A stretch of 39,962 nucleotides of DNA from Bacteroidota bacterium (GTDB lineage: Bacteria > Bacteroidota > Bacteroidia > UKL13-3). Under the pieces are notes generated by a model that did not search any database, was not told where the DNA came from, and saw only the letters and a program-made list of their open reading frames with translations. Positions 5,501 through 32,514 of the stretch are shown here, piece by piece; position 1 is the first letter of the stretch; each line of letters begins with the position of its first letter. Both the position numbers and the translations under genes were made by a program. The DNA lies in the NCBI GenBank assembly GCA_947453415.1, contig CANGGG010000025.1, positions 1 to 39,962 of the forward strand, read 5' to 3'.

Positions 5501-5574
5501 TAAGCCTGGTCAACCACTTCTTGGTCAAGGTAGCCTAAATGTTTCCGTATGATAGATTCTTGAAATAATGACAT
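2536..5574 (-). CDS. Type IIG restriction-modification protein (fused endonuclease and N6-adenine methyltransferase)
   Basis: Single-chain restriction enzyme that should both cut foreign DNA and methylate host DNA. The N-terminal nuclease domain shows a PD-(D/E)xK-like centre: D87 in KKADGAI, then E101-L-K103 in GVIELKDNK. A helical region follows (about 190-440). The methyltransferase carries SAM motif I DPACGSG (447-453) and catalytic motif IV NPPYG (570-574), typical of gamma-class N6-adenine enzymes. The C-terminal 350 residues look like the target-recognition domain, including a KGLFPKILVNDVRNIP segment of the kind found in TaqI/Eco57I-type specificity domains, and end in a charged helix. 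At 1012 residues it has the expected length and no separate specificity subunit is nearby. It is alone on its strand, about 0.5 kb from tRNA-Phe, and bounded by 42-bp direct repeats. The reading frame is intact with both active sites, so it is probably functional. Recognition sequence cannot be predicted. Confidence 0.93.
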   Translation of the reverse strand: MSLFQESIIRKHLGYLDQEVVDQAYLRFKEVYSNNKISNIKVAKEEQYQEGFIKDIFGAVLGYSVFPEQPFNIQTEKKNEANSKKADGAIMQGENVVGVIELKDNKTKNLDAVKDQAFGYKNNHKDCSYVISSNFHKLRFYLDDATDYEEFDLYNLDKETFKRFYLYLRKEGLLDKNIPKLLRQETKFHEENITKSLYKDYSSFKNSFFQNVLKNNPQHDKLLLFKKSQKFLDKVLFVLFAEDKGLVATNSIVQIVEKWQNLKNDAFDTPKPLYELVALFFNNLFIGKKDQKGGILIPEFGGEIFAPDEVLDTLLVDDGVLKDDLLKLSKYDFNTDVDVNILGHIFEHSLSEIEEVEAELKGEVADKTKGKRKKDGVFYTPKYITKYIVENTIGKLCAEKKAALKLDIDIAIFEHQKADGKLNAKGIELYETLNQYKDWLLTLKILDPACGSGAFLNQAVNSLVQEHTFVDDIIAELTNTPLRLFDTDLAILENNIYGVDINEESIEIAKLSLWLRTAKQGRKLSNLSNNIKCGNSLIDDPAVAGDKAFNWQKEFPEVFANGGFDVVIGNPPYGVNFNEIEKKYLSNFDKSVPDFEIFIYFISLYKKFLKFNSVLSYIFPNTFLSTLYGKKYRDELLNNVSVYQIVDLSEDNTFADAAVRTCIFSFRKNGNEYVSEFIKPNNESFELFSKYTKKELLLNSDNLMSLFNQTNNEIFIIDKLKRYNILSKFHEVSQGLIPYDKYRGHDEQTIKNRIWHSTYQKDETFKKELKGGDVNRYLINWNGMLWISYGQWLAAPRKPEFFNNERILVREILADKLYCGYTKEEYYNTPSCINVIDAKKILHLRYTLCILNSKLIGWYVKKVSPKANKGLFPKILVNDVRNIPMIEINKNEQIVFIEKADTMLFLNKELQEQCQKFQRSLERKFALTELPKKLQDWYLLSYAEFIKELGKKKIKLSLSEEAEWETYFSTEAKKALELKTQIAKTDKEIDQMVYALYELTEDEIKIVERKLE

Positions 5575-12282: not shown

Positions 12283-14604
12283 ATGAAATATATTTACCTG
12301 CTTTTATTTACATTTTTTACATGCGTGATTGCCGTAGCACAGCAAGCTAGAATTAAAGGAACTGTAATAGATTTAGTTACTCAAAAACCCGTTGAATACA
12401 TCGTAGTAACACTCGACAAAAAAAAGCAACTATTTACAGACAGTTTAGGTACTTTTTCGTTCAATACAATTGCGGGAAAACATAATTTAAAAATCTCGAG
12501 GGTTGGTTATAGAACTGCTTTTTTAACCATAGATTTAGACGAAGGCGCCAATAAAAAAATTCAAATTGAGTTGGAAGCATTTTCTGATCAAATGAATCAA
12601 ATAGTAATTGCTGGTTCACGCGAAGGTAAGCAAGTAGCAAAAGAAATTGCTTCGGTAAGTATCATCAAACCTTATTTAATAGAAAACACAAATAGCACCG
12701 ATTTATCGCAGGTTATTAACCGATTACCAGGTGTGCAAGTGGCAGATGGGCAGGCAAGTATTAGAGGCGGTGTGGGCTGGAGTTATGGAACTGGAAACAG
12801 AATTGCAGTTTTATTAGACGACATGCCTTTATTAGGAGCCGATTTGGGTGATGCACGATGGAAATTTTTACCAATAGAAGCGGCCGAACAAGTGGAAGTA
12901 ATTAAAGGTGCTTCATCGGTTTTATATGGCTCAGCGGCACTAAACGGAACTATCAATGTAAGAACTGGCTGGCCAACTATGAAGCCACAAACTAAAATTC
13001 AAAGCTATCAAGGTGTGATGCAAAATTATGATAGGTCAGAAATTAATTGGTGGGAAAAATCGACCCAACCGTTTAATAATGGTATGTTTTTTTCGCATAA
13101 ACAGATGTTTGGAAATTTTGATTTGGTGCTAAGTGGGAATGTTTCAAGCACGCGCAGCCATTTGCAATATAACGATGAACTGAGAGCTAGAACTTATTTT
13201 AAAACACGCTATCGCCCTAAAAACAATAAAAATCTTTCATTTGGATTGAATGGTAATTTGATGTTTGAAAAATCGGGAAATTATTTTTTATGGGCCAATG
13301 CCGATTCAGGTACGTTAAAACAGTTTGACAGCAAAAAAATTATTGATAATTTTTACAGAATTATAAGCGTTGATCCACATTTGGATTATAAGCGTGGAAA
13401 CATGAGTCATTCTGTAAAATTCAGGTTTTATCAAATAGCTAGATTGGTGGAGGTAAAAAGATATCAATCGGAACATGATGCGATAGCAAGTTTGTATGCA
13501 TTTGACTATAATAACAAGTATAAAATTAATAAATATTTTACTTTAAATAGTGGCATTTATAGTACCACTTTACTTGCAAATGGCAATTTATATAAAGGTG
13601 TTTTTGGAGGGGCAACTGCTGCTATTTATTCCCAAGCCGATTTTACTTATAAAAAATTAATTGTTACTGCTGGTTTGCGATATGAAGCCATTGCTCAAGA
13701 TACCAGCAAAGTAGAAAAAGCACTTTTAAGAAGAATAGGTTTAAATTGGCAAGTAGCTAAAAAAACATTTATCCGTTCTAATTATTCTGAAGGTTATAGG
13801 GTGCCTTCTATCAGTGAAAAATTTGTAGAAGATAAAATTTCATTTCTTTCTGTAATCCCAAATACAACATTGGTTCCAGAAAAAGGTTGGACTGCAGAAA
13901 TTGGCGTGCAACAAGGTTTTAAAATTGCAGGATTTGTAGGCTCACTTGATTGCGCTATTTTTATGCAAGATTATGACAGTATGATTGACTATAAATTTGA
14001 CCAATACAACAAACATCCAACACCTGATAATCCGGATCCTAATTTAGGTTTTAAAGCATTTAATGTAGGTCATGTTCGTGCTGGCGGAATTGATTTAAGT
14101 GTACAAGGCGAAGGAAAAATTAAAGATGTAATGATTCGTATTTTAACAGGTTATACTTATAGTTTACCAGTGAATATGAGCGTTGACAATAGCCTAAAAG
14201 ATTATGGAAATTATACCAATTTATTTCTTAAAAGTTTAAGCGTAGATAAGGCCCAACCAGGAAGTGATTTATACAAAGCTTTGCTGACAAATAGGAATAG
14301 AACAACTGCCAAATTTGATATAGATTTAACCTACCATAAACTTACTTTTGGATACTCTATTTTTTATTACAGTGTATATGAACGTGTAGATGAATTTGTA
14401 TTGCTTTTACCTGGTGTAAAAAAGTTTTTTGAAAATGCAGGAATTGCAGATGTAGTTCATAATGTTCGCATAGGATTTAAACCTGCTAAAAACTATTCAT
14501 TTGGGTTTTTGGTAAATAATTTAACCAACAGAGAATTTGCTACAAGACCAGGAAAAATGGATCCCGCAAGAACAGTTGTTGTTCAATTATTGGTGAATTT
14601 TTAG
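12283..14604 (+). CDS. TonB-dependent outer-membrane receptor with N-terminal carboxypeptidase-regulatory-like domain
   Basis: Predicted outer-membrane gated channel of 773 residues that would import a ligand with energy from TonB-ExbBD. It has a signal peptide (1-20, cleaved near VAQQ), a carboxypeptidase-D regulatory-like beta domain (about 22-105: RIKGTVIDLVTQKPVEYIVV), a plug domain (about 118-228) with VINRLPGVQV, IRGGVGW and EVIKGASSVLYGSAALNGTINV, and a 22-strand barrel ending in a terminal Phe (VVVQLLVNF) as outer-membrane insertion requires. The shape and size are those of siderophore, haem, cobalamin or metal receptors and not of the larger SusC group, and no SusD gene is adjacent. 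The substrate cannot be told. It is transcribed alone and no Fur box or cobalamin riboswitch is evident upstream. Confidence 0.9.
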   Translation: MKYIYLLLFTFFTCVIAVAQQARIKGTVIDLVTQKPVEYIVVTLDKKKQLFTDSLGTFSFNTIAGKHNLKISRVGYRTAFLTIDLDEGANKKIQIELEAFSDQMNQIVIAGSREGKQVAKEIASVSIIKPYLIENTNSTDLSQVINRLPGVQVADGQASIRGGVGWSYGTGNRIAVLLDDMPLLGADLGDARWKFLPIEAAEQVEVIKGASSVLYGSAALNGTINVRTGWPTMKPQTKIQSYQGVMQNYDRSEINWWEKSTQPFNNGMFFSHKQMFGNFDLVLSGNVSSTRSHLQYNDELRARTYFKTRYRPKNNKNLSFGLNGNLMFEKSGNYFLWANADSGTLKQFDSKKIIDNFYRIISVDPHLDYKRGNMSHSVKFRFYQIARLVEVKRYQSEHDAIASLYAFDYNNKYKINKYFTLNSGIYSTTLLANGNLYKGVFGGATAAIYSQADFTYKKLIVTAGLRYEAIAQDTSKVEKALLRRIGLNWQVAKKTFIRSNYSEGYRVPSISEKFVEDKISFLSVIPNTTLVPEKGWTAEIGVQQGFKIAGFVGSLDCAIFMQDYDSMIDYKFDQYNKHPTPDNPDPNLGFKAFNVGHVRAGGIDLSVQGEGKIKDVMIRILTGYTYSLPVNMSVDNSLKDYGNYTNLFLKSLSVDKAQPGSDLYKALLTNRNRTTAKFDIDLTYHKLTFGYSIFYYSVYERVDEFVLLLPGVKKFFENAGIADVVHNVRIGFKPAKNYSFGFLVNNLTNREFATRPGKMDPARTVVVQLLVNF

Positions 14605-19463: not shown

Positions 19464-21587
19464 ATGAAACAAAACTACATGATAAAATTATCAGGATTTG
19501 TACTAATCCTTTCAGCATTATTATTTGCATGTAAAGGTGGAGGCGGAGGAGATATTAATGAAGCACGCAAAAAATTTAAAGGCTTAGAATATGCTGCAGC
19601 TGGCGATATTTACAAAAAAGTTTATGGTAAAACCAAAAATAAAGACATTAAAAAAGAAGCAGCTTTTTATGCCGCTGAATGTTATAGAATTTCTAATAAT
19701 TGGCCTGTAGCTGAAGCTTGGTATACCAAGGCTGTTCAACAAGATCCAACCAATGCAGAAGCAAAATATCGTCAAATTCAAGCATTGAAATTTTCAGAAA
19801 AATATGTTGAGTCGATTACTGAGGCTAACAAATACAAAAAAATTGTAGGTTCTGATCCTAAAATAGATTTAGAAGATTGCGGTAGCGTAAACGCTCAAAA
19901 GTGGAAAACAGAAAAAACCCGTTATTTAGTAGAAAACGTTGTGAAATTGAATACTAAATGGAGTGATTTTGCTCCTATGTATTACAGAAAAGACCAGTTA
20001 ATGTTTACTAGCGATAGACTAGAAGTTGGGGTAAGTGGAAAAAACAAATATGGTTGGTTTAATAATGGATATAGCGATGTTTATAATACTACTTTAAAAC
20101 TAAATAAAAAGAACAAAGAAATTATTGAAAGTTATAGTTTACCTGCTTTAGTTGACAAAACAAATATTAATGGTAAATGGAATGATGGTACAGTTTGTTT
20201 TGATGCAAAATACACCACCATGTATTTTACAAAATGTAATTACGGAGCAAAATTTGATGGAAAAGGCGCTCATTGCAGAATATACGAATCAAAATTAAGT
20301 GGTACAGAATGGAGCGTTCCAGTTGCACTTCCTTTTAGTACCGATTCATTTGATTGTGGTCATCCTTTTTTAAGTAAAGATGGAACAGTTTTATATTTTT
20401 CAAGTAATATGCCTGGAAGTATTGCAAAGCCTGTTACCAGCGCTGAAAATCCTGAAGGAGCTGAATTAAGTAAAGATATTTACAGTGTAAGTTTTAGTAA
20501 AAGAGGAAATGCTTGGGGCGATCCAGTAAATTTAGGACCAACTATTAACACGGAAGGCGATGAAGGTTTTCCTTTTTTACACGAAGATGGAACTTTATAT
20601 TTTTCATCAAATGGAAAATGTGGAATGGGTGGATTTGATATTTATCGTGCTACAGGACAAGGAAAAGATTGGGGCGATGCAATTAATATGAAATCACCTA
20701 TTAATTCTGGTGGTGACGATTTTTCAATCATTGTTTCTAAAGATAAGGAAAGTGGATTTTTCTCATCAAACAGGGCAAATGGTAGCAAAGGAAGTGATGA
20801 TATTTATAGATTTACAAAAACTCCTTTGGTATTTACTTTAAGTGGTGTGGCTCGTAATTCTGAAACTAGAGAAATATTGAAAAATACTACTATTTCATTT
20901 ACGAACAGTTCAGATACTGTAAAATTGGTATTGAAAACAGATGGCGTTGGTTCATATAAAATTCCATTGCGTGCTGGTACTGATTATGATTTGTATGGTA
21001 ATAAACCATTATTTTATGATAGTAAAATATACTCACAAACAACCAAAGGTTTAGAAGTGTCAACAGATTTAATTCAAGATTTAGAATTGATGCCAATCAA
21101 TATAAAAACGTTTGAAGTACAAGGTATTTTCTATGGTTTAGATAGCGCAAATATTAGACCACGTTCGGCTGAAATATTAGATTCATTATTGATCATTATG
21201 AACAAATATCCAATGTTAAAATTTGAGTTAGGTTCACACACAGATTGTAGAGCAGATTCATTGTACAATATTAGATTATCACAAAGACGTGCAGATTCAT
21301 GTGTTGGTTATTTAATTAGCCACGGTGTAGATTCAAACAGATTGATTTCAAAAGGTTATGGCGAAAACGAATTAGCAGTTCCCGCTTGTGCTTGTGAAGG
21401 ACCAAATGAAAGAGAACAAGGACAAAAATGTCCTGAATCTGAGCATCAAAAAAACAGAAGAACTACTGTAAAAGTAATTGATATTAATTATGTGGCTCCC
21501 GCTGTTAAACTGAAAGAAAAAGAAGCTGAGCCAAAACAATTATTGCCAGGTCAAAGAGTAAGACCCGGAACACAACCAAGAAGGTAG
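19464..21587 (+). CDS. PorE-like OmpA-family lipoprotein (TPR, beta-propeller, regulatory domain, OmpA C-domain)
   Basis: A 707-residue lipoprotein whose domain order matches PorE, the type IX secretion component that anchors the outer-membrane rings to peptidoglycan. Lipobox LFAC puts the lipidated Cys at residue 23. A TPR-like helical part (about 35-130) contains EAAFYAAECYRIS and AEAWYTKAVQQDP. PD40/WD40-type propeller repeats (about 165-455) are recognisable by FTSDR, LYFSSN, LYFSSNGKCGMGGFDIYRA and FFSSNRANGSKGSDDIYRF. A carboxypeptidase-regulatory-like domain follows (about 460-540). The OmpA C-domain (about 555-685) has the peptidoglycan signature SHTDCRADSLYNIRLSQRRA. The tail is Pro, Lys and Arg rich. 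It sits alone between terminators, as PorE does in Porphyromonas. Bacteroidota have several proteins of this design, so exact orthology is inferred. Confidence 0.82.
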   Translation: MKQNYMIKLSGFVLILSALLFACKGGGGGDINEARKKFKGLEYAAAGDIYKKVYGKTKNKDIKKEAAFYAAECYRISNNWPVAEAWYTKAVQQDPTNAEAKYRQIQALKFSEKYVESITEANKYKKIVGSDPKIDLEDCGSVNAQKWKTEKTRYLVENVVKLNTKWSDFAPMYYRKDQLMFTSDRLEVGVSGKNKYGWFNNGYSDVYNTTLKLNKKNKEIIESYSLPALVDKTNINGKWNDGTVCFDAKYTTMYFTKCNYGAKFDGKGAHCRIYESKLSGTEWSVPVALPFSTDSFDCGHPFLSKDGTVLYFSSNMPGSIAKPVTSAENPEGAELSKDIYSVSFSKRGNAWGDPVNLGPTINTEGDEGFPFLHEDGTLYFSSNGKCGMGGFDIYRATGQGKDWGDAINMKSPINSGGDDFSIIVSKDKESGFFSSNRANGSKGSDDIYRFTKTPLVFTLSGVARNSETREILKNTTISFTNSSDTVKLVLKTDGVGSYKIPLRAGTDYDLYGNKPLFYDSKIYSQTTKGLEVSTDLIQDLELMPINIKTFEVQGIFYGLDSANIRPRSAEILDSLLIIMNKYPMLKFELGSHTDCRADSLYNIRLSQRRADSCVGYLISHGVDSNRLISKGYGENELAVPACACEGPNEREQGQKCPESEHQKNRRTTVKVIDINYVAPAVKLKEKEAEPKQLLPGQRVRPGTQPRR

Positions 21588-21657: not shown

Positions 21658-22050
21658 TTATAAAAAACTAGCTATTGAATTTGCTATTTCTATAAATTCA
21701 TCTTTTGTAAAAGTGAGTTTATTATTTAAAAAGTTCATGTCACTTACCTCATTTATTGGAATTAAATGAATATGTGCATGTGGAACTTCCAAACCTATTA
21801 CAGTAACTCCAATTCTGTTACACTTTATGGCTTTTTTTAAAGCAATTGCAACAGTTTTAGCAAATAAATGAAGCTGTACATAGCTTTCGTTTTCTAAATC
21901 GAAAATATAATCTGTTTCTATTTTAGGTATTACCAGTAAATGTCCTTTTGTTAATGGATTAATATCTAAAAATGCTAAACAATGCTCAGATTCTGCCACT
22001 TGATAACAAGGAATTTTACCAGCAATAATTTTAGCAAAAATACTGGCCAT
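21658..22050 (-). CDS. HIT-family nucleotide hydrolase
   Basis: Small cytoplasmic histidine-triad protein of 130 residues, predicted to hydrolyse nucleoside phosphoramidates or dinucleoside polyphosphates. The N-terminal SIFAKIIAGKIPCYQVAES and FLDINPLTKGHLLVIPK are diagnostic of the Hint branch, and the catalytic triad HAHIHLIP has H91, H93 and H95. It starts only 3 bp after the greA stop, so the two are translated from one message. This greA-HIT pairing recurs in Bacteroidota as far as I recall. No zinc-binding Cys pair is seen. Confidence 0.93.
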   Translation of the reverse strand: MASIFAKIIAGKIPCYQVAESEHCLAFLDINPLTKGHLLVIPKIETDYIFDLENESYVQLHLFAKTVAIALKKAIKCNRIGVTVIGLEVPHAHIHLIPINEVSDMNFLNNKLTFTKDEFIEIANSIASFL

Positions 22051-22053
22051 GAT

Positions 22054-22554
22054 TTAGCTAAATGAAATATTTAAAATTTCTAATTTTATAACGCCTGCGG
22101 GTGCAGTAATTTCAGCTATTTCGCCTAATTTTTTTCCCATTAATCCAGCACCAATTGGCGATTTAGCCGAGATTTTACCAATTTTAAAATCAGCTTCGTT
22201 TTCAGAAACAACTATATATGTAAACTCTTTTTTTACATTATGATTCATCACTAAAACTTTACTCAAAAGCATAACTTTAGTATTATCGAGTTTTGATTCA
22301 TCAATAATTCTACTGATTGCCAAAAGAGATTCTACTTGTGATATTTTAGTTTCCAAATGCCCCTGATCTTCTTTAGCAGCATGGTATTCAGCATTCTCGC
22401 TCAAATCACCTTTGTCTCTAGCATCTGCAATTTGTTTAGAAATAAAAGGACGTTTTACAAATTTTAAATCGTGAAGTTCATTTTGTAACCTTTCAAATCC
22501 CTCTTTCGATAAATAATTTAAAGCTGGTGGAACTGATAATGTTTTTTTACTCAT
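22054..22554 (-). CDS. greA: Transcript cleavage factor GreA
   Basis: Rescues backtracked RNA polymerase by inserting a coiled coil into the secondary channel and stimulating cleavage of the nascent RNA. The 166-residue protein has the N-terminal coiled coil (about 15-85) with the acidic-tip motif DARDKGDLSENAEY (44-57), and a C-terminal FKBP-like domain that starts near VMNHNVKKEF and includes KISAKSPIGAGLMGKKLGE. The first 10 residues are a short extension before the core. It is first in the greA-HIT pair. The full tip distinguishes it from non-cleaving relatives. Confidence 0.95.
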   Translation of the reverse strand: MSKKTLSVPPALNYLSKEGFERLQNELHDLKFVKRPFISKQIADARDKGDLSENAEYHAAKEDQGHLETKISQVESLLAISRIIDESKLDNTKVMLLSKVLVMNHNVKKEFTYIVVSENEADFKIGKISAKSPIGAGLMGKKLGEIAEITAPAGVIKLEILNISFS

Positions 22555-22578: not shown

Positions 22579-22619
22579 AAAAACAAAAAGAAACGTTCGG
22601 AATATGCATTCCGAACGTT
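22579..22619 (-). terminator. Intrinsic terminator of the receptor-cargo-PorV operon
   Basis: A perfect 12-bp stem AACGTTCGGAAT (22592-22603) with 22608-22619 and 4-nt loop. On the minus strand it is followed by TTTCTTTTTGTTTTT. It lies 25 bp past the PorV-like stop codon at 22645. A TATATTTG on the minus strand (22639-22632) could be a -7 box for greA, in which case the hairpin would also be in the greA leader. Confidence 0.9.
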
Positions 22620-22644
22620 CCTTTGTATTAGCAAATATATTATT

Positions 22645-23742
22645 TTAGTTGTTATTTCCTAAAGTTAGTTTAAGACCAATGCTATGAATTCCGCTAAAAA
22701 TAACAGTTGGTTGATATGCATAATCAATAGATAAAGCAGTACCAGCATCACTTATTGGTAAATTAAAACCAACACCATAACTTAAACCATATTGAGGAGT
22801 TCTGTAGTCAGAATTTGAAAAATTACCTTCTTGATGCGCATATCCTGATCTAACCATGAACATACTTTTAAATGAATATTCTAAACCTAATGCAGTAATA
22901 TTTGATGAAAAAGCATTGTAATTAAAGTTACCAGAAACTGATAATCTATGGTCATAAGTTTCTTCACCTTTATCTAAACGCATGTCATAAGTAACACCAA
23001 TATTAGCTAAAGCCGGCATATTAAATGGTTGAGAACCAAATAAAGTTTTACGAGTTGCTCCAGTAGCAGTAACAGTAGTATTAGTCGATAAACCAGTACC
23101 TTGATAGGCAAAATCTGGACCTAGATTACGAATAGCAATACCAAATCTAAAATCTTGTTTTTTAATTTTCTTTGTAGGATTTAGAGCAGTTTGATATTGA
23201 ACACCAGCATCTAAGGTAACGCCACTTGCATTCACATTAGCAGTACCTTCACTTACATATCTTACCATTAAACCACCAGTTATAGAATTAGAAAAAGTTT
23301 TTGAATATGCTAATCCTAAGTTCATAATTTGTGTAGTATAAGAACCCAATGTCATGTCAGGTGCTTCAGTAGTGGTAATAGGAATACTTCCCATATCCCA
23401 ATAAGAAAATGCCATACCCAATACACCACCACTTCCATTTTCGCCTAATGCTTGCGCAATACCAAAATTATTGATGTAAATGTCTGTACCTACCAAGTAT
23501 CTTGTTTGAGATGCTTGAATTTCCATTTTCTTTACATAAGCCAAACCACCAATATTTAAATAATATGATTCTAAGCCACGGGCAGAAGCGGTATTTGAAC
23601 CACTTAAACCAACTCCTCTAACATAAGGATTAACCAAAAGCTGAGTTGCACCAGCTCCACCAGCTCTATCTGGATTTCCTGCATTAACTGTAGCCAAAAT
23701 ACCAAAACAGGCTACTAAACTTTGTAAAATATACTTCTTCAT
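22645..23742 (-). CDS. PorV/PorQ-family outer-membrane beta-barrel protein
   Basis: Predicted 14-strand FadL-like barrel of 365 residues. PorV carries type IX secretion substrates from the translocon to the attachment complex, and PorQ is its relative. Signal peptide is residues 1-21 (cut near VNAG). The family start GGAGATQLLVNPYVRGVGLSGSNTASA resembles the canonical F-L-R-I-G-V-G-A-R-A-A-G-M-G segment in altered form, and LNIGGLAYV replaces the usual N-P-A-G-L. Alternating hydrophobic strands run to the end (HSIGLKLTLG). These changes place it away from the main PorV, so it may serve only the protein encoded upstream. It is the last gene of a three-gene minus-strand unit and is followed by a perfect terminator. 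A hairpin lies in the 79-bp gap before it. Confidence 0.82.
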   Translation of the reverse strand: MKKYILQSLVACFGILATVNAGNPDRAGGAGATQLLVNPYVRGVGLSGSNTASARGLESYYLNIGGLAYVKKMEIQASQTRYLVGTDIYINNFGIAQALGENGSGGVLGMAFSYWDMGSIPITTTEAPDMTLGSYTTQIMNLGLAYSKTFSNSITGGLMVRYVSEGTANVNASGVTLDAGVQYQTALNPTKKIKKQDFRFGIAIRNLGPDFAYQGTGLSTNTTVTATGATRKTLFGSQPFNMPALANIGVTYDMRLDKGEETYDHRLSVSGNFNYNAFSSNITALGLEYSFKSMFMVRSGYAHQEGNFSNSDYRTPQYGLSYGVGFNLPISDAGTALSIDYAYQPTVIFSGIHSIGLKLTLGNNN

Positions 23743-23775
23743 ACGAGTAATTTATTTTATACTTTTTTTTATAAA

Positions 23776-23808
23776 ATATCACTTAATCAATAAATGACTA
23801 AGTGATAT
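23776..23808 (-). other. Hairpin between the cargo and PorV-like genes
   Basis: ATATCACTTA (23776-23785) and TAAGTGATAT (23799-23808) form a perfect 10-bp stem with a 13-nt loop. On the minus strand the following T tract is short and broken (TTTAT), so it may attenuate or stabilise the message but not end it fully. On the plus strand a T-rich tract follows, but no plus-strand gene lies upstream. Confidence 0.6.
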
Positions 23809-23821
23809 CGTTTTTGTTTTA

Positions 23822-26800
23822 TTAAAATGAATCAAAATCAGCTGGGCGCATTACACCAAACCATTTTATAATTCTTTCACCAATTCCAGGAGCTTCTACA
23901 TGTATTAAATATACGCCACTTGATACTGGAACATTTGCGTCATTACGTAAGTTCCACTCAATGTATGTTTTGGAATCATCGTCTTTGTTAATTCTACGAA
24001 CTAAGAATCCATTTTGAGTATAAATAGAAACAGTACATTTTTTTGGAGTATTAATAATTTTAACCCTGTTATCTAAAGCATTTCCTGGATCTTCATAACC
24101 ACTATAAGCATAGTAAGGATTAGGAGAAACATTGATCATATCCATTGCTTTATTACCTGCCGTTTTATCGTTAATTTGAGGTGCAATACTTGCTGTGTTA
24201 AATTCATATAATGGTTGACCCGCATTCATTAAAGGCGTATCAATATTATTTGTGTATTTTGCAAAAGGACGTTTTACTCTTAATTTTACAACGGCTTCAT
24301 TTGGAACTATACCATCTGCCATTGAACTTAATTTTGAAGTAAATGAAAGCATTGGCATGGTAACCCACATAAATTGTGATAAGAAATAACGTTTTTTCAA
24401 TTGATTTGGATCTTCAGAAGGACTATTTACAGCCATTAATGTATTATAGTTAGCGCAACCATCATATTTAGGGCCTTTGTAAAGAACATTAGAACCAATT
24501 TTAAGTTCTTTTGCTCCCATGATATAAACGTGATGTTTTCCACCAAATGAAGGAATAGCATTATTTGAAAATTTATCAAAGAAACTATTGGTAGGATTCC
24601 AAATCATATCAGCACCATTTTCTGTTGGTAATGATGAATCTTCGCCAAAAACAATATTTAATCTTTCGCCAGTTTCTACATTTATAGCATAACCTGGAAA
24701 CCAACTTAAACCATAGCTACCTGGTATTTGTTTACCGTCTTTATCTACTGAAAGTGAATACCTGATATTACCTTTGGCAACATTTCCAATATTTTGCTCT
24801 CTGTTTTCACCCATTTCCAAAACGATACATTGTGACCATTTGCTTTTATCATTTGTAAATACAACATCCACACCTTGTAAAGTAGACAAAGGATTGTCTT
24901 CAGATATTTGGTTGGTATTAGGAGTTAAACTAAGTCCAGGACCATAACTACTTGTATATTGATTTGTAGCAGTTTTTGTTAAAGTAGCTTTTGCAGCTAA
25001 TTCAAAAGGAGCCCATGTTCCACCTAATATATTTCCAAATTGTTTTCTAGGATCAATTGCTACTTTGCTACCACCAATTGATCTAAAATAATCATGTTCA
25101 CCCACATTTCCAAAATCTGGAGTTCCGGTATTACCTGATCTAATCCAATTAAAAGGAGGAATAGCAATCATACCATCTGGTACGCCTTGTAACCAGCGGT
25201 CTGTTGGGTCAGAAAATGTAATGGTACCATCTACAAAACCATTTGATAAATCTGTACTATTATTTGGATCACCGGGGGCGGCAACTTGACTCACAGTAAC
25301 TGATAAACCTAATTCTTCAAAAATTTGTTCATTATTTAATTCTAAATTTCTTTTACCTAAAAAAGTATCATTAGTAATTGTATTTACAATATACCACCTA
25401 GCATTTGCTCTTGAAAGAGAATCACTTAATTTGGAATTTGCTGAATTATCATTAATAAATAATCTAAAATCTGATAAAGGAACTTTAAATGGATTTACTA
25501 CTTTAATAATAACAGGACCTTGACCTTCTACATATTTTGGTTTTTTAGAAAAATATGGAGCTGCTAAAGCTTCTTCTATCGATTGTTTTGATAAATTTAA
25601 AAAGTTACCGCTGTTTCCAATTCCTTCAACTCTTGTTAAAGCAGGACCACTTGTATAACTACCATTTAATTGAGTTCCCTGTTGGTGACCATATGATAAG
25701 TGAGGGGTGCAAGTTATAATTACAGGTTTAGAACCTGATAAATATTGTAAAGCTTCATCTACACAATTAGTTACAGCAGCATATGGAACAATTAAGAAAT
25801 GGTAGTTTTTATAGTTTACCAAAGTTTGATCTGATTCAATTGAAAACACATCACGTGTTATTTGGAAAGAATGACGGATGCCTTTGTCTTCACCATTCAC
25901 CATTATTTTCTTCACATTTCCTAAATCTGGATCATTTACTATATTAACTATAAAACCAATACCATCTTGTAAATCGCATTGTGCAACTAACCTAGCTTGA
26001 TCTCTGTCAGAGAAATCACTTGGCGTAGTAGGTATTTTAAGTTGGTAAATTTGGTAACCTTGGAATTTATAGTCAGTTGAATCAGTGCATAAACCTGATA
26101 CTTTTGCTTTAAAAGCTTCTGGTTTTTCAGCATTGATAATATTAATTACTAATTCGCGGTTCAATTCAGTAATTTTTACTGCGTTGTCATCAAATTCTGG
26201 TCCTCTTAAAATTTTGAAATTATTTTTAAATAAAACAGTTGCTTTATCACTTGCTTCTTTTAATAAATTAAATGAACCAGTAGCACCACCAGTAGTAGCT
26301 CTTGACCAAACTACTCCAATTGTAACTCTATTAACTGCGCCTGGCAATAATTTAAATGAACCAGCAGTTTGTAAAAAACGTCTATCAGCAGGAGTATTTC
26401 CGGCAATTCTTTCAGTCCATGCAGCTCTTTTTCCAGGATCGGTAGAACCAGGGAACATATAACTAGCAGTATCAGAACCACCTCTACCATTACCACCATA
26501 AGTAATTTGTTGTCCATCTTTCCAACGGCCATTTAAATAATTCCAGTAATGTGCAGGATTAGAAGGATTTCCTTGTTGAGATTGGTTGTTATCATAATAT
26601 ACAAATTTTGTTAAACCAATTTGTTTCCCATTTTCATTTAAAGGACCTTCAAAAAAGTTGACTCCAATACTAGGTGGATTTAATCCATAACCTAAAATAC
26701 CTTCATCATTATCGTCACCATTATAGCAAATTCCTAAATTTCTTTTTACATCACATTCAACATAATCATCTATATAATTACCTAAATCAGGATCAACCCA

Positions 26801-27685
26801 TTGGCCAAAAACACAGCTATCAATAATTTCAGTACCTCTATTTATAATAGTAGTTTTATAAAAAGTCATATTATTTACTTCGTCATTGGTAGCAAAACCA
26901 AATGCTTGTAATCTAAATTCTAAGTTTAAAGGCAAACCTTGAGTTTCAGTATGAATATTTCCTTTGTCATTATAACAAATAAACATCATTTGATCAGGGA
27001 TAGAAGCCAAGCCAGCCTCTCCTTGATTGAAAGTAGGATAATCACCTTCATCGTAGCTATAAACTCCATCATTATTTGCATCAAAAAATGGTGCTAAAAA
27101 CTTAGCCTCACCAGTACTTCCGTTTCCTGGCCATTGTTGGATATCAACGGGAGCGTTTAAAGGATCACCGTCAATATGAGCAGCAATTTGAGAACGTGTT
27201 ACAGTCCAAACTTTATCAAAAGTTTTACATCTATCGGCAGAAATACTAGCGGAACCATCAATTTGTAATGGACCTGGATAAAAATCGTTACCAGTTTGAC
27301 GATACGTTTGTGCTGCTAATCTTAAATTTCCTTGTGTGATTCCACCAATCCAAAGTGCTCCTGAAAACAAAGAGTTTTTAGCTACTTGACCTGTTTGAAC
27401 TTTAGGAACTTCGTAACGGGCGTTACTTAAATTCCACCACATGTCACCACCATTTAATATAATGGTTCTAACATTGTTTATAGAAAGTTCTTTTTGAGCA
27501 GTTGCTGGTAAGCAACCAGCGCCCATTTTAGATAATGGATTACTTGATTTAAATGAAGGATTTTCGTTAGCTGATTTACCCGCTAAATTTCCTTTTCCAA
27601 TATTTTCACGTGCTTGAAGATTTAAACAAAATCCTAAAGCACTTAAAAATAATGCTGCTGTTTTTATATTTTTAAAGTTTAACAT
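23822..27685 (-). CDS. Large exported protein with T9SS-like C-terminal domain
   Basis: A 1287-residue secreted protein that I recognise only as a Bacteroidota family of unknown role. An N-terminal signal peptide (about 1-25) is followed by MWWNLSNARYEVP (82-94) and LFSGALWIGG (106-115), then FDANNDGVYSYDEGDYP (201-217), which has the spacing of a calcium-binding loop. The middle (about 230-1150) is beta-rich with many Asn, Gly and Pro and alludes to several Ig-like units. The last 100 residues resemble a type A sorting domain: NVSPNPYYAYSGYED, VSIYTQNGFLVRRI, SSGVYLIHVEAPG. After the final strand GERIIKWFGV there is an extra MRPADFDSF tail. It starts 18 bp after the receptor gene stop and precedes a PorV-like gene, so it is probably the cargo of that pair. 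Confidence 0.8.
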   Translation of the reverse strand: MLNFKNIKTAALFLSALGFCLNLQARENIGKGNLAGKSANENPSFKSSNPLSKMGAGCLPATAQKELSINNVRTIILNGGDMWWNLSNARYEVPKVQTGQVAKNSLFSGALWIGGITQGNLRLAAQTYRQTGNDFYPGPLQIDGSASISADRCKTFDKVWTVTRSQIAAHIDGDPLNAPVDIQQWPGNGSTGEAKFLAPFFDANNDGVYSYDEGDYPTFNQGEAGLASIPDQMMFICYNDKGNIHTETQGLPLNLEFRLQAFGFATNDEVNNMTFYKTTIINRGTEIIDSCVFGQWVDPDLGNYIDDYVECDVKRNLGICYNGDDNDEGILGYGLNPPSIGVNFFEGPLNENGKQIGLTKFVYYDNNQSQQGNPSNPAHYWNYLNGRWKDGQQITYGGNGRGGSDTASYMFPGSTDPGKRAAWTERIAGNTPADRRFLQTAGSFKLLPGAVNRVTIGVVWSRATTGGATGSFNLLKEASDKATVLFKNNFKILRGPEFDDNAVKITELNRELVINIINAEKPEAFKAKVSGLCTDSTDYKFQGYQIYQLKIPTTPSDFSDRDQARLVAQCDLQDGIGFIVNIVNDPDLGNVKKIMVNGEDKGIRHSFQITRDVFSIESDQTLVNYKNYHFLIVPYAAVTNCVDEALQYLSGSKPVIITCTPHLSYGHQQGTQLNGSYTSGPALTRVEGIGNSGNFLNLSKQSIEEALAAPYFSKKPKYVEGQGPVIIKVVNPFKVPLSDFRLFINDNSANSKLSDSLSRANARWYIVNTITNDTFLGKRNLELNNEQIFEELGLSVTVSQVAAPGDPNNSTDLSNGFVDGTITFSDPTDRWLQGVPDGMIAIPPFNWIRSGNTGTPDFGNVGEHDYFRSIGGSKVAIDPRKQFGNILGGTWAPFELAAKATLTKTATNQYTSSYGPGLSLTPNTNQISEDNPLSTLQGVDVVFTNDKSKWSQCIVLEMGENREQNIGNVAKGNIRYSLSVDKDGKQIPGSYGLSWFPGYAINVETGERLNIVFGEDSSLPTENGADMIWNPTNSFFDKFSNNAIPSFGGKHHVYIMGAKELKIGSNVLYKGPKYDGCANYNTLMAVNSPSEDPNQLKKRYFLSQFMWVTMPMLSFTSKLSSMADGIVPNEAVVKLRVKRPFAKYTNNIDTPLMNAGQPLYEFNTASIAPQINDKTAGNKAMDMINVSPNPYYAYSGYEDPGNALDNRVKIINTPKKCTVSIYTQNGFLVRRINKDDDSKTYIEWNLRNDANVPVSSGVYLIHVEAPGIGERIIKWFGVMRPADFDSF

Positions 27686-27703
27686 AAATTATTTTTTTTC
27701 TTT

Positions 27704-30700
27704 TTAAAACTGAACTGAAATTCCAATACGTGTTAAGCGTGGTAATAAAAATCTGTCAGAGTTTACCATTCTTGTATTATATAAGTCAACAAATGATTGA
27801 GCATTGGTTGCAGTTCTAATTTGATCGGCTGCAAACGGTGAACTTAAATAACCATCGCTGTATGCGCTACCTGTGTATCTATAAACACTTGTTACATTTG
27901 CAGCATTTAATAAATTAGTAACAGTTAGGAATACACGCATGCGATATTCTTTAACTTTAGCTCCTGCATTACCATTTTTAATGGTAAAGTTTTTATCAAT
28001 GTTAATATCCACATTAAACTGAGCTGGTAAATTAGCTCCATTTGGTGTTCCTTTAATTGAACTTCTAGTAGCTGCTCCCGATTGTGCATCTGGTGTAGCA
28101 GTTAAGTTTTGAGTATAAGGGCGACCAGAATATGCTGAGAAAATAAAATTACAACCAGCATTTTCCAATATTTTTTTACCACCAATAATAGGACCATCAT
28201 ATTTTTTACCATCTTTATAATGGAAATCAAAATTGGTTTTAAAAGTATGACGAGTGTCAAAATCTAAGGGGAAAATTGTTCTAGTATTTGGCAAACCAGC
28301 TTGAATTAAAGCAGAACTTGATGAAATATTTGAACCTGAACCATCGGCAAACTGTAAATTATAATTTGCATCAATATTTACATTTCCCATGTCAATTAAT
28401 TTATACTCTAAACCTACAGACTTAACAGTTGAAAAATCTATATTTCCTACAGTAGTATAAGTATTTGGCCAAGCTTGAATAAAGCTATATAATTGAGTCA
28501 TGTTTCTATTTTCCCTGTAAGTAGCAATTAAACCAATGGCTGAGTTTTTACCAATTTGTTGACGGAAACCAATTTCATAAGCAGTTACTTGTGTCATTTT
28601 CAAATCAGGATTTGCAATAATGCCTGTTAATCTGTTTGATAAGTAAAAATAATCATCAATTTGAGCAACATTTCCACCTGGTCTTTGATTTAAAATATCG
28701 TAAGTACCATAGAATTGAGAAGAAGTATTAATAGGGAAAGAGAACCAAACACGAGGTGAAATTTTTACATCTGGCACGTAATCTTTAAAAGAAGCTGCTG
28801 TTGGTACTTTTGGACTTTTAGCATCCGCAACATAAGGAATATTTTGACTAGTTCCAGCTGCACGTTGAATAGCTGCTGGATCTGAAACAGGGTTACCGTT
28901 TTTGTCATACCAATTATTACCATTTCTAAATCCGGCTACACCATAAGTATTTGAGCTAAAATTATCTGTGTTAATATATACTTTCCAATCGTCTTGAACT
29001 ACCGAAGGAATTGCATCTTTTTCTATTTTCAAAGAACCTGCTGCAGCAGTTCTAATTTCTCCTGCCGATAAAATTGGAACCATTGAATAAGGATCACGTA
29101 ATACTAATTGATTTGCATCAAATCTTTCAACACGTAAACCAACGCGTAAAATTAAATCTTTGAATTGGAATTTATCTTGAATCCAAGCTGCAGCATATAT
29201 TGGCTGATAAGCTCCTAAGATTCTGTTTTTGAAAAATTCATTAATTCCAGGTTTACCTGATACTTCGTTTCCTAAATGGTCATAACCAAAATAACCAACA
29301 TACGAATTTCCATTATTTAATAAATCATTTGCCGAAAACATATTTAAATTATACGTTCCAGGTGAATATGAATTTACATCAAGATAAGTTTGACTTGTAA
29401 TTGGGTTTCCATTATTATCTGTAGCATTAGTACTAATTAATTTATCTCTTAAATTTTTATCAAATTCAGTTTGATCAGCAGCTACTATTCTTCTGTCGAA
29501 AGTAATGGTATCTTGAAAAACTCCATTGGCATCAAACTTTGCATAACCAATTGAATCTAAACCTGAGAATTGGCGATTTGCTAATAATGGCATTAAGTTC
29601 CATAAGTTACCAGCTGCTAATGAGTAATTTCTTTGAATACGTTGTTCGTAAGTTAGTCCAAATTGCAAATTATGTTTTGCTTTTAAGTTTCTACGAGGAG
29701 CAATGGTGGCATTTGATTCAATATAAACAATATAGTTTTCAAATAAACTTTTTGAATATCCTGTTTGAATATCACCTACATTTCCCCACATACCTGAATA
29801 TATTGAGAGTGGATCATCACCATTTTGCAAAGCACCCAAACCTCTTAAAGGAGCAAAGTTTGCAAAATTATCGGCACCATAAAAGTTTAAGAATGCTTGC
29901 GTGTAATTTCCTCTTACAGTATTAAAGTCAGCTTTGGTAAAACGGAAAGCAGTATCTCTAAAACCAGTTTGACGGGTATAACCAGTTAAGAAAAGTTGTT
30001 TGCCATCTTTTAAAGTAATAGTATCAACTGGTGATTGAAATCCTTTTCTAATATTGGTATAAGCAGGTGCATTATAAGTTTTAAACTTTCCTACATAACC
30101 ATATTTAAAAAAGTCCTTGCCATTATTAGGATCAAATGTTTCAGAGAAGTTACGTTCGTAACTAACCCTAACAGTATAATAAGCATCCGAAATTTTTACA
30201 CCCTTAGTAATAGCAGCTTCTAATCTGGCTTTAGTAGTATCTTCTTTTTTATTAAACATTTGGGTAAACTGTAAATAAGTTACCGTTCTATATCCTTGCG
30301 AAACTGAATTGTTTGCAGTATTTAAAAGAGAAGCATAGCTATTCCAATTATTTTGATTGAAAAAATTATAAATATAACCTAATTTTACGTTTATATTATT
30401 ACTTGGTTGGTAGTTAAAATTACCACTAGCACTTACATTATAACCAGAAGCATTTACACGATAATCTGTTTTTTCTAAATCGCTTTTTCTTAAAAATTCA
30501 CCCGCTGGAACCAATGAACCTAATGCATTTGGTCGAACAGGAGTTGCCTCTATTTCTTTCATTTTGGCATCTTTCACTTTATACATATCTACAGCGGGTA
30601 AACCACCGTCTAATGCATAAGCAGCTCTAATTGAATTGGTAAATCCTATTAATATTTTTTCCCTATCTTTATTTCCTTTGTCTCTTAATAAAATTGGACC

Positions 30701-31471
30701 AGATATAAATGAGGTAAATTCATTGTGGTTTGAATTATCTAAATAGCCATAAAAAGGACTTGAAGTTCTATATTCAAAAAAGCGAATCCATTGTTTGGTT
30801 GGCGCTTTGGTAGTAGCACTAATTGCTCCACCCGTAAAATCGCCATAAGAAGCAGGAGTTCCACTTGTAATAACTTCTAAATTTTCAATTGCGTTAGCAG
30901 GCAAACTAATTCCAGTTACCCTTACACCATCTATATAATAAGCAGTGTTTTCAGAACGTGAACCTGCAATATTTGGTGTTCCGCCTCCTCTTGAATCAAC
31001 TCCACGTTGGCTTCCAGCCAATGCATTGATATTTTGAGTTCCTTGTTTGTTTATATTTTTTAGTGTTTTTTGAGTCGGGTCATCAGGATCAATTAATTGA
31101 ACCTTATCCCTAATAGTTACTGGACCTAAATTGGTTTTATTACTTGGGCTTAAACTAAACGACCTATTAGTAATTTTGTTATCACCTTTAACCGGAATAT
31201 CTTCAGTTTTAGCTTTTTGGTATCCTGTTAATGAAATTGTTACATCGTAATTTCCTGCGGGAATAGCTGTAAATTCAAATTCCCCATCTTTATCGGTGTA
31301 TTTTGATTTTTTTATTCCTCCACCACCTTCTATGGTAACCAAAGCAAATTCTATCGGCTTTTTGGTGGTTTCATCGTTGACTTTGCCTGCAAGTGAACCC
31401 AAGTTTGACTGGGCCGTTGCAATAGCAGAAATGCCTATTAAGGCAGCTAGTAATAAATATATCCTTCTCAT
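27704..31471 (-). CDS. Large TonB-dependent receptor-like protein with carboxypeptidase-regulatory-like domain
   Basis: A 1255-residue outer-membrane protein, much larger than iron receptors (650-800) and beyond typical SusC (about 1000). Signal peptide is residues 1-21 (IATAQS). A carboxypeptidase-regulatory-like domain (about 25-105) has LAGKVNDETTKKPIEFALV and GNYDVTISLTGYQK. The plug-like region (about 130-225) has AGSQRGVDSRGGG, SENTAYYIDGVRV and ENLEVITSGTPASYGDFTGGAI. The rest is barrel with long loops, ending in RIGISVQF. No SusD partner is present; the two following genes are an exported protein and a PorV-like barrel. This suggests a role in surface assembly or export and not nutrient uptake, but that is inference. 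TACATTTG on the minus strand (31553-31546) could be the -7 box, about 75 nt upstream; a proper -33 is missing. Confidence 0.85.
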   Translation of the reverse strand: MRRIYLLLAALIGISAIATAQSNLGSLAGKVNDETTKKPIEFALVTIEGGGGIKKSKYTDKDGEFEFTAIPAGNYDVTISLTGYQKAKTEDIPVKGDNKITNRSFSLSPSNKTNLGPVTIRDKVQLIDPDDPTQKTLKNINKQGTQNINALAGSQRGVDSRGGGTPNIAGSRSENTAYYIDGVRVTGISLPANAIENLEVITSGTPASYGDFTGGAISATTKAPTKQWIRFFEYRTSSPFYGYLDNSNHNEFTSFISGPILLRDKGNKDREKILIGFTNSIRAAYALDGGLPAVDMYKVKDAKMKEIEATPVRPNALGSLVPAGEFLRKSDLEKTDYRVNASGYNVSASGNFNYQPSNNINVKLGYIYNFFNQNNWNSYASLLNTANNSVSQGYRTVTYLQFTQMFNKKEDTTKARLEAAITKGVKISDAYYTVRVSYERNFSETFDPNNGKDFFKYGYVGKFKTYNAPAYTNIRKGFQSPVDTITLKDGKQLFLTGYTRQTGFRDTAFRFTKADFNTVRGNYTQAFLNFYGADNFANFAPLRGLGALQNGDDPLSIYSGMWGNVGDIQTGYSKSLFENYIVYIESNATIAPRRNLKAKHNLQFGLTYEQRIQRNYSLAAGNLWNLMPLLANRQFSGLDSIGYAKFDANGVFQDTITFDRRIVAADQTEFDKNLRDKLISTNATDNNGNPITSQTYLDVNSYSPGTYNLNMFSANDLLNNGNSYVGYFGYDHLGNEVSGKPGINEFFKNRILGAYQPIYAAAWIQDKFQFKDLILRVGLRVERFDANQLVLRDPYSMVPILSAGEIRTAAAGSLKIEKDAIPSVVQDDWKVYINTDNFSSNTYGVAGFRNGNNWYDKNGNPVSDPAAIQRAAGTSQNIPYVADAKSPKVPTAASFKDYVPDVKISPRVWFSFPINTSSQFYGTYDILNQRPGGNVAQIDDYFYLSNRLTGIIANPDLKMTQVTAYEIGFRQQIGKNSAIGLIATYRENRNMTQLYSFIQAWPNTYTTVGNIDFSTVKSVGLEYKLIDMGNVNIDANYNLQFADGSGSNISSSSALIQAGLPNTRTIFPLDFDTRHTFKTNFDFHYKDGKKYDGPIIGGKKILENAGCNFIFSAYSGRPYTQNLTATPDAQSGAATRSSIKGTPNGANLPAQFNVDINIDKNFTIKNGNAGAKVKEYRMRVFLTVTNLLNAANVTSVYRYTGSAYSDGYLSSPFAADQIRTATNAQSFVDLYNTRMVNSDRFLLPRLTRIGISVQF

Positions 31472-31587: not shown

Positions 31588-32514
31588 TTATTTTAAGTTA
31601 GTTAATTTTAAGAGTATGGATTGCGCAATTTTTTCATAACTCTCAAAAGTCCAACCGGCAATATGCGGTGATAAAACTACTTTTTTGTTGTTTATAAGGT
31701 AGTCAAAATCTTTTTGCTGTTGGTTGCTTAGTGTGGTTAATTTTTCGTTTTCAAGTACATCAAACGCGGCACCTAATACGATGTTATTGTTAATATATTC
31801 AATGGTTTCAGGCATATTTACCACCTCTCCCCTACACATATTTAACAGGTAAATTTTTTTCTTAAATTGACCCAAGAATTTACCGTTTACCATATTTTGG
31901 GTTTCGGAAGTTAGCGGCACATGAAGAGATAAAATATCGACTTTTTCAAAGATTTCGGCCAAATTTGCTTCTTGGGCATTTTGGTTAGAATAATTTTTTA
32001 AATATTTATCATAGGCCAAAACTTTCACATCAAAACCGGATAATTTTTTGGCAAAAGCCTTTCCTGTGTTTCCAAAACCAATAATTCCAATTGTTTTTCT
32101 GTTCAATTCTATTCCCCTATTTCCCTCACGGTCCCAAATTTTGTTTTGAACTTGGAAATTTGCAATATTGATGTTCCTAAATAAATTCAATAAAGCGCCT
32201 AAAGTAAATTCGCCAACCGCATCGGCATTGGCTTCGCCAGCATTGAAACAAATAATTTTTTGTTGCGCAGCAATGTTTAAATCAATATTGTCTAATCCAC
32301 TTCCTGCTCTGGCTATTATTTTTAAATTTTTAGCAGCCTCAAAAATTTCATTGTCAATGAGCGTTTTGGTTCTTAGCACCAACACCTCAAAAGGTGCAAT
32401 GAGTGCAATGATTTCTGCTCGGTTTATGTTTGGTAAATAAGTTACAGAATAACCAATTTCTTGTAAACCAGCAATTAGTAAGTCAGCTACATCGTCTATT
32501 ATTAAAACTTTCAC
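31588..32514 (-). CDS. D-2-hydroxyacid dehydrogenase, phosphoglycerate dehydrogenase-like
   Basis: Cytoplasmic NAD-dependent dehydrogenase of 308 residues, probably acting on a 2-hydroxy acid such as 3-phosphoglycerate (first step of serine synthesis). It shows RAGSGLDNID (69-78), the Rossmann loop GFGNTG (146-151), and the catalytic set R228 in MCRGEVVN, E257 or E255 in DVLENE, and H284 in LSPHIAGWT. It lacks the ACT regulatory domain found in longer SerA proteins, so feedback control by serine at that site is not expected. The first codon is GTG at 32514, since no ATG gives the N-terminal Rossmann-like strand MKVLIIDD. Substrate is inferred; a broader reductase role is possible. Confidence 0.88.
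   Translation of the reverse strand: MKVLIIDDVADLLIAGLQEIGYSVTYLPNINRAEIIALIAPFEVLVLRTKTLIDNEIFEAAKNLKIIARAGSGLDNIDLNIAAQQKIICFNAGEANADAVGEFTLGALLNLFRNINIANFQVQNKIWDREGNRGIELNRKTIGIIGFGNTGKAFAKKLSGFDVKVLAYDKYLKNYSNQNAQEANLAEIFEKVDILSLHVPLTSETQNMVNGKFLGQFKKKIYLLNMCRGEVVNMPETIEYINNNIVLGAAFDVLENEKLTTLSNQQQKDFDYLINNKKVVLSPHIAGWTFESYEKIAQSILLKLTNLK

Follow-up and report, generated by a model that had tools for sequence, protein, structure and literature searches.

PorZ and PorU, two surface proteins exported by the T9SS, retain their C-terminal domain (CTD), and the barrels PorQ and PorV, respectively, keep them attached to the surface (PMC5562754). T9SS cargo of type B has a cognate PorP/SprF shuttle that is encoded just downstream (PMC12618676, PMC9143113), whereas type A CTDs all use PorV as their single shuttle: One-to-one cognate shuttles are, according to work published in 2025, a matter of type B (PMC12618676). 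For a TonB-dependent transporter (TBDT) that carries a lid, BtuB–BtuG is the precedent (PMC10404256). The locus described here is built from parts of known kinds, the combination of which is new as far as tested: Each cargo of PorZ type has one PorV-family barrel and one TonB-dependent receptor (TBDR) as its partners, and this one-to-one coupling extends across the phylum. We found no description of such an operon in the open-access literature, which is weak evidence as most subscription journals and bioRxiv lie outside this scope; the same literature yielded no description of a PorV-family barrel that is dedicated to one cargo and linked to a TonB receptor, and nothing relevant on UPF0164 or PorV paralogues.

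The locus lies in a window of 39,962 nucleotides, which is contig G000:C25 in its full length; the assembly comprises 2.9 Mb in 107 contigs. As in the original prediction, three genes follow one another on the minus strand with gaps of 18 bp (receptor to cargo) and 79 bp (cargo to barrel). The first gene of this triad (27704..31471; ORF, domain search, and family alignment) encodes a TBDR of the predicted 1255 residues, the second (23822..27685; ORF and family alignment) an exported cargo of 1287 residues, and the third (22645..23742; ORF, domain search, and tree) a PorV-family barrel of 365 residues. All three proteins begin, by inspection, with a Sec-type signal sequence. In agreement with the earlier reading, the domain search detected no SusD gene among the neighbors of the triad, which are greA/HIT and a 2-hydroxyacid dehydrogenase gene. 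PADLOC returned nothing for the three proteins.

Like PorZ–PorQ and PorU–PorV, the triad would comprise a surface protein that is exported by the T9SS and keeps its Ig-like CTD, with a PorV-family barrel as its holder; it differs in the body of the cargo, in a barrel that belongs to neither the PorV nor the PorQ clade, in the linkage of its genes with a TBDR, and in the many copies found in some genomes. With the type B pairs SprB–SprF and Fjoh_3952–3951 it shares the arrangement of one cargo and one cognate barrel encoded directly downstream. The triad barrel, however, belongs to the PorV family, the CTD of the window cargo is not of type B, and the gene upstream of the cargo encodes a receptor. 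SusCD and BtuBG likewise contain a TBDR with a CarboxypepD_reg and a plug domain that is encoded beside a likely extracellular partner, but in the triad this partner is a T9SS cargo without lipobox instead of a SusD-type surface lipoprotein, the receptor has no SusC match, and a PorV-type barrel is added. Oar is a large TBDT with a carboxypeptidase-regulatory domain, and Oar–PopC also links such a transporter to an exported protein; unlike PopC, the triad cargo comes with a T9SS CTD and a barrel of its own.

The original prediction had named conservation of the three families as neighbors across Bacteroidota as its test, and such conservation is indeed seen. Of 58 related genomes, 56 encode a homolog of the cargo, and the order receptor–cargo–barrel is kept in the loci fetched from them. 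Among 80 loci taken from a named collection of genomes, 68 of 75 eligible ones have the receptor gene directly upstream of the cargo gene, and 63 of 74 have the barrel gene directly downstream. The same order was found in nearly every locus examined from other classes of the phylum, and this phylum-wide conservation excludes chance. Altogether, the fetched loci contain 173 non-redundant proteins with this CTD, 142 of which are directly flanked by both receptor and barrel on the same strand and within 700 bp; as the loci were picked by similarity to cargo or barrel, these figures measure linkage and not abundance. Contig ends truncate several of the remaining 31, and among the others are stand-alone paralogues of the cargo. 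Eleven loci (L031, L044, L050, L052, L093, L097, L122, L127, L132, L134, and L144) carry such stand-alone paralogues at full length, with CTD and tail intact and neither a linked receptor nor a linked barrel; they may borrow the barrel of the triad. All five relatives in which a stand-alone copy was seen (G049, G051, G055, G056, and G057) also possess a receptor-linked one. Bacteroidia usually have one copy of the core triad, which is near-universal in the family of the window genome.

AlphaFold2 modeling of the cargo as two overlapping fragments gave confident models (pLDDT 92 and 91). Residues 58–495 (26201..27514, minus strand; pLDDT 92) are predicted to form a supersandwich-type domain as it is found at the N-terminus of GH15, GH65, GH94, and GH116-type enzymes: The best structural match of the predicted model is 9ju0 (VIA Z 19.1, 255 aligned residues, 3.3 Å), and cellodextrin phosphorylase reaches Z 18. 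The catalytic (α/α)6 barrel that follows the supersandwich in those enzymes is, on inspection, missing from the secondary structure of the cargo. The predicted fold thus suggests that the cargo handles carbohydrate, a fold in common with carbohydrate enzymes being no proof of a ligand. An FN3-like sandwich at residues ~493–663 (25697..26209, minus strand) matches at Z 8–9.5 and represents a common arrangement. The domain search contributed only a weak C-terminal FlgD-like match, a profile of the cargo found no match among PDB sequences, and the protein has no lipobox.

Residues 1174–1279 of the cargo (23849..24166, minus strand) are predicted to adopt a PorZ-type T9SS CTD fold, followed by the conserved tail FGVMRPxDxDSF. 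PorZ itself (5m11) is the best PDB match (Z 11.2, 2.3 Å over 92 residues, 27% identity; next match 9.5) and exceeds the background of common FN3-like matches elsewhere in the model; Foldseek also retrieved PorU and the CTD of RemZ, the latter as seen in the translocon, and the sequence models of PorZ and PorU agree by matching weakly. The T9SS-like CTD that had been proposed from the sequence is thus supported by the predicted fold, and an Ig-like C-terminal domain of CTD fold places the protein among T9SS CTD cargos in the broad sense. It is no type A cargo by TIGR04183 (13.6 bits at a cut-off of 23), and searches of Pfam and NCBIfam with E values of up to 0.1 gave no match to the type B models (CHU_C/TIGR04131) either. 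Because PorZ and PorU keep their CTDs and stay surface-held by PorQ and PorV, a PorZ-like CTD, unlike that of an ordinary type A cargo, points to a permanent anchor more than to a shuttle.

The barrel was likewise recognized correctly as a variant of the PorV/PorQ family. It scores 128.5 bits with the family model (NF033709, PorV_fam; cut-off 90), far below the thresholds for PorV proper (NF033710, 67.7 bits at a cut-off of 250) and PorQ (NF033711, 54.3 bits at a cut-off of 220), and its profile matches the PorV structure 6h3i with E 3.9e-17. A tree calculated for 57 barrels resolves PorV and PorQ as one clade each (100/99 in both cases), and the triad barrels constitute a third group outside both, which includes one unlinked barrel of the window genome (100/95). 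Within this group, the barrel from the window belongs to a core subclade with members from other classes (100/100). Elsewhere, the genome encodes PorU, SprA, and full-scoring versions of both PorV (contig C34, 469 bits) and PorQ (contig C1, 308 bits); since true PorV and PorQ are present at other places, the linked barrel is additional, in line with the private PorV paralogue that had been postulated. Contig G000:C24 (L158, 7393–8463) encodes a PorV-family barrel that is neither PorV nor PorQ and has no linked receptor.

That the module is self-contained, as originally envisaged, is not supported. SprA is encoded in all 58 related genomes, in the window genome on contig C12, and in a sample of 296 genomes drawn over GTDB Bacteroidota each of the 141 genomes with the cargo family also has SprA, compared to 86 of the 155 cargo-negative genomes. 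This corresponds to a Fisher P of 3e-24, a value that ignores phylogeny and includes many SprA-negative genomes from one family. Because SprA accompanies the cargo in 141 of 141 genomes, the cargo is most likely secreted through the common translocon, with SprA as the general T9SS channel.

Two domains of the receptor score above their Pfam cut-offs. A CarboxypepD_reg extension occupies its N-terminus (residues 26–99, 31175..31396, minus strand; PF13620, 55.4 bits, cut-off 32.3) and is succeeded by a plug domain (residues 136–215, 30827..31066, minus strand; PF07715, 29.6 bits, cut-off 23.9). Between the two, reading of the alignment by eye suggests a TonB-box-like stretch at residues ~115–122 (31106..31129, minus strand), for which the family consensus is LxEVxVxxY and from which the window protein diverges. 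Neither barrel nor SusC models matched in the domain search; against the PDB, the family profile found the plugs of siderophore receptors. Nothing here supports the idea of a TonB-type pore that handles the cargo itself; the plug is that of a normal importer.

We propose that the triad forms one outer membrane complex. The cargo would be exported by Sec and then pass through the general T9SS channel SprA, from which the dedicated barrel would take it over by recognizing the PorZ-type CTD. Instead of releasing the cargo, the barrel would retain it as a permanent surface anchor in the way PorQ retains PorZ and PorV retains PorU. Thus anchored, the cargo with its supersandwich domain would sit on the TBDR of its own operon and present a ligand for TonB-driven import, so that the triad would correspond in function to SusCD or BtuBG, with a T9SS-delivered lid in place of the lipoprotein lid. 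The role of the barrel as dedicated carrier or anchor of the cargo is well supported, and we infer it with considerable confidence. Import with the cargo as lid is more speculative, and the chances for and against it appear balanced; the full explanation, which takes complex, dedicated anchor, and lid together, we likewise regard as an even matter. If confirmed, the triad would add a third class of T9SS carriers, explain many unassigned PorV/PorQ family proteins, tie T9SS export to TonB uptake, and provide a natural set of matched pairs for carrier–CTD recognition.

An expanded form of the triad is seen in other classes. Two single-contig genomes (G290 and G086), in which we inspected most PorV-like genes, contain eight divergent triads each and in addition one rearranged triad each; true PorV and PorQ are among the remaining PorV-like genes of G290. 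In these expanded triads the families of CTD, receptor, and barrel are kept while the bodies of the cargos are diverse, and Pfam recognized no named body domains in nine of these cargos. Genes adjoining the expanded triads carry ordinary type A-like tails, which the triad CTD model does not recognize. Within each of the two genomes, pairwise distances correlate between receptor and barrel (r 0.84 and 0.82), CTD and barrel (r 0.61 and 0.70), and receptor and CTD (r 0.58 and 0.77), with permutation P values from 0.00005 to 0.0033. Such correlated divergence means that triads stay together through duplication; by itself it does not show contact, since joint diversification is also expected if the operon merely duplicates as a unit. 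Regarding SusD (PF07980), there is none in four barrel-rich genomes (G278, G321, G297, and G290), whereas the 68 SusD matches of one Bacteroidia genome go with a single PorV-like barrel of the triad type. Triads and SusD are both present in G086, G104, and G127, and the window genome has two SusD matches away from the triad; the comparison covers thirteen genomes, too few for statistics. We tentatively, and at somewhat less than even chances, conceive of the triads as a phylum-wide class of TonB importers in which a T9SS-secreted protein, and not a lipoprotein, forms the lid that captures the substrate and is held by a lid-specific PorV-type barrel. This class, which has expanded in genomes with little SusD, would solve the same problem as SusCD in a second and perhaps more ancient way and would at the same time be a third class of T9SS carriers.

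Several observations speak against the full explanation, among them the genomes that have both triads and SusD, the stand-alone cargo paralogues, and a TonB box that is matched by eye and divergent in the window. Moreover, the core triad, usually single-copy, near-universal in its family, and fixed beside greA–HIT, has the look of a housekeeping locus and less that of a variable nutrient system. The same surface complex might, instead of importing nutrients, serve to maintain the outer membrane or a surface glycan, for which its presence in nearly all relatives, its fixed greA–HIT neighborhood in 83–89 loci from many families, and a CTD closest to that of PorZ, whose partner complex handles LPS (PorZ–PorQ: A-LPS attachment), can be adduced. 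The many divergent copies with differing cargo bodies in other classes, however, look like ligand diversification, and whole families of Bacteroidia have SprA but lack the triad; we therefore judge envelope maintenance to be unlikely, though a serious competitor.

Doubts could also be raised about the complex as such. With a true PorV and PorU in the genome and with cargo paralogues that stand alone, the three genes might be merely co-regulated, the canonical pair handling the cargo and the linked barrel being employed otherwise. A CTD that is PorZ-like and scores 13.6 bits where type A requires 23, the divergence of CTD and barrel in step, and a linkage that is kept across the phylum make this improbable. 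Still less credit is due to a route on which the receptor itself secretes the cargo in the manner of Oar and PopC in Myxococcus: A TBDT together with the Ton system can indeed secrete a protein (PMC6434023), and the receptor gene directly precedes that of the cargo in most loci, but neither a T9SS-type CTD nor SprA in every cargo-positive genome would be expected of a T9SS-independent export. For these two reasons we set Oar-type export aside as the main route. The proposed complex with a dedicated anchor and a lid on a TonB importer hence remains our preferred reading.

The borders of the operon were also inspected. Directly past the stop codon of the barrel gene, a hairpin of 17 pairs (22587..22624, minus strand; -23.9 kcal/mol, z -8.8) precedes a T-rich tail. 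This is the strong terminator that had been called perfect; by direct reading one of its pairs is G-T, so that it is nearly but not strictly so. A second hairpin occupies the gap between cargo and barrel (23775..23809, minus strand; z -7.9). It was present in every locus of the genus that we checked (L005, L006, L008–L012, L021, and L023), while its sequence is largely replaced between species, and it may play a role in the stoichiometry of cargo to barrel or in protecting an mRNA end. An Rfam scan of the window found a tRNA alone.

Upstream of the receptor gene, at a distance of 116 bp and on the same strand, the domain search identified a 2-hydroxyacid (phosphoglycerate-type) dehydrogenase gene (31588..32514, minus strand), which is itself preceded by a promoter-like site, TTTG-N20-TAGTTTTG. 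The operon may start one gene earlier, the dehydrogenase gene being possibly co-transcribed. In Bacteroidia the dehydrogenase is often found upstream of the core triad, with mostly less than 140 bp in the 38 gaps measured, and homologs also occur upstream in loci of other classes (L152, L156, L173, L174, L180, and L187). Downstream, greA and a HIT-family gene (21658–22554) adjoin the triad; across many families of Bacteroidia, greA holds this position in 89 loci and HIT in 83. Such a fixed neighborhood, including the dehydrogenase, suggests that the core triad is inherited vertically and has a basic role; envelope maintenance finds its main support here.

Three further genes of the window are worth mentioning. 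A PorE/CHU_0125-type TPR-PD40-OmpA protein is encoded near the triad on the opposite strand (19464–21587), a proximity that is not kept in relatives. A Type IIG restriction enzyme–methyltransferase with Eco57I and TaqI_C domains (PADLOC, 752 bits) is located at 2536–5574, and positions 12283–14604 encode another TonB-dependent receptor, this one of the ordinary kind, which matches both the plug and the full barrel.
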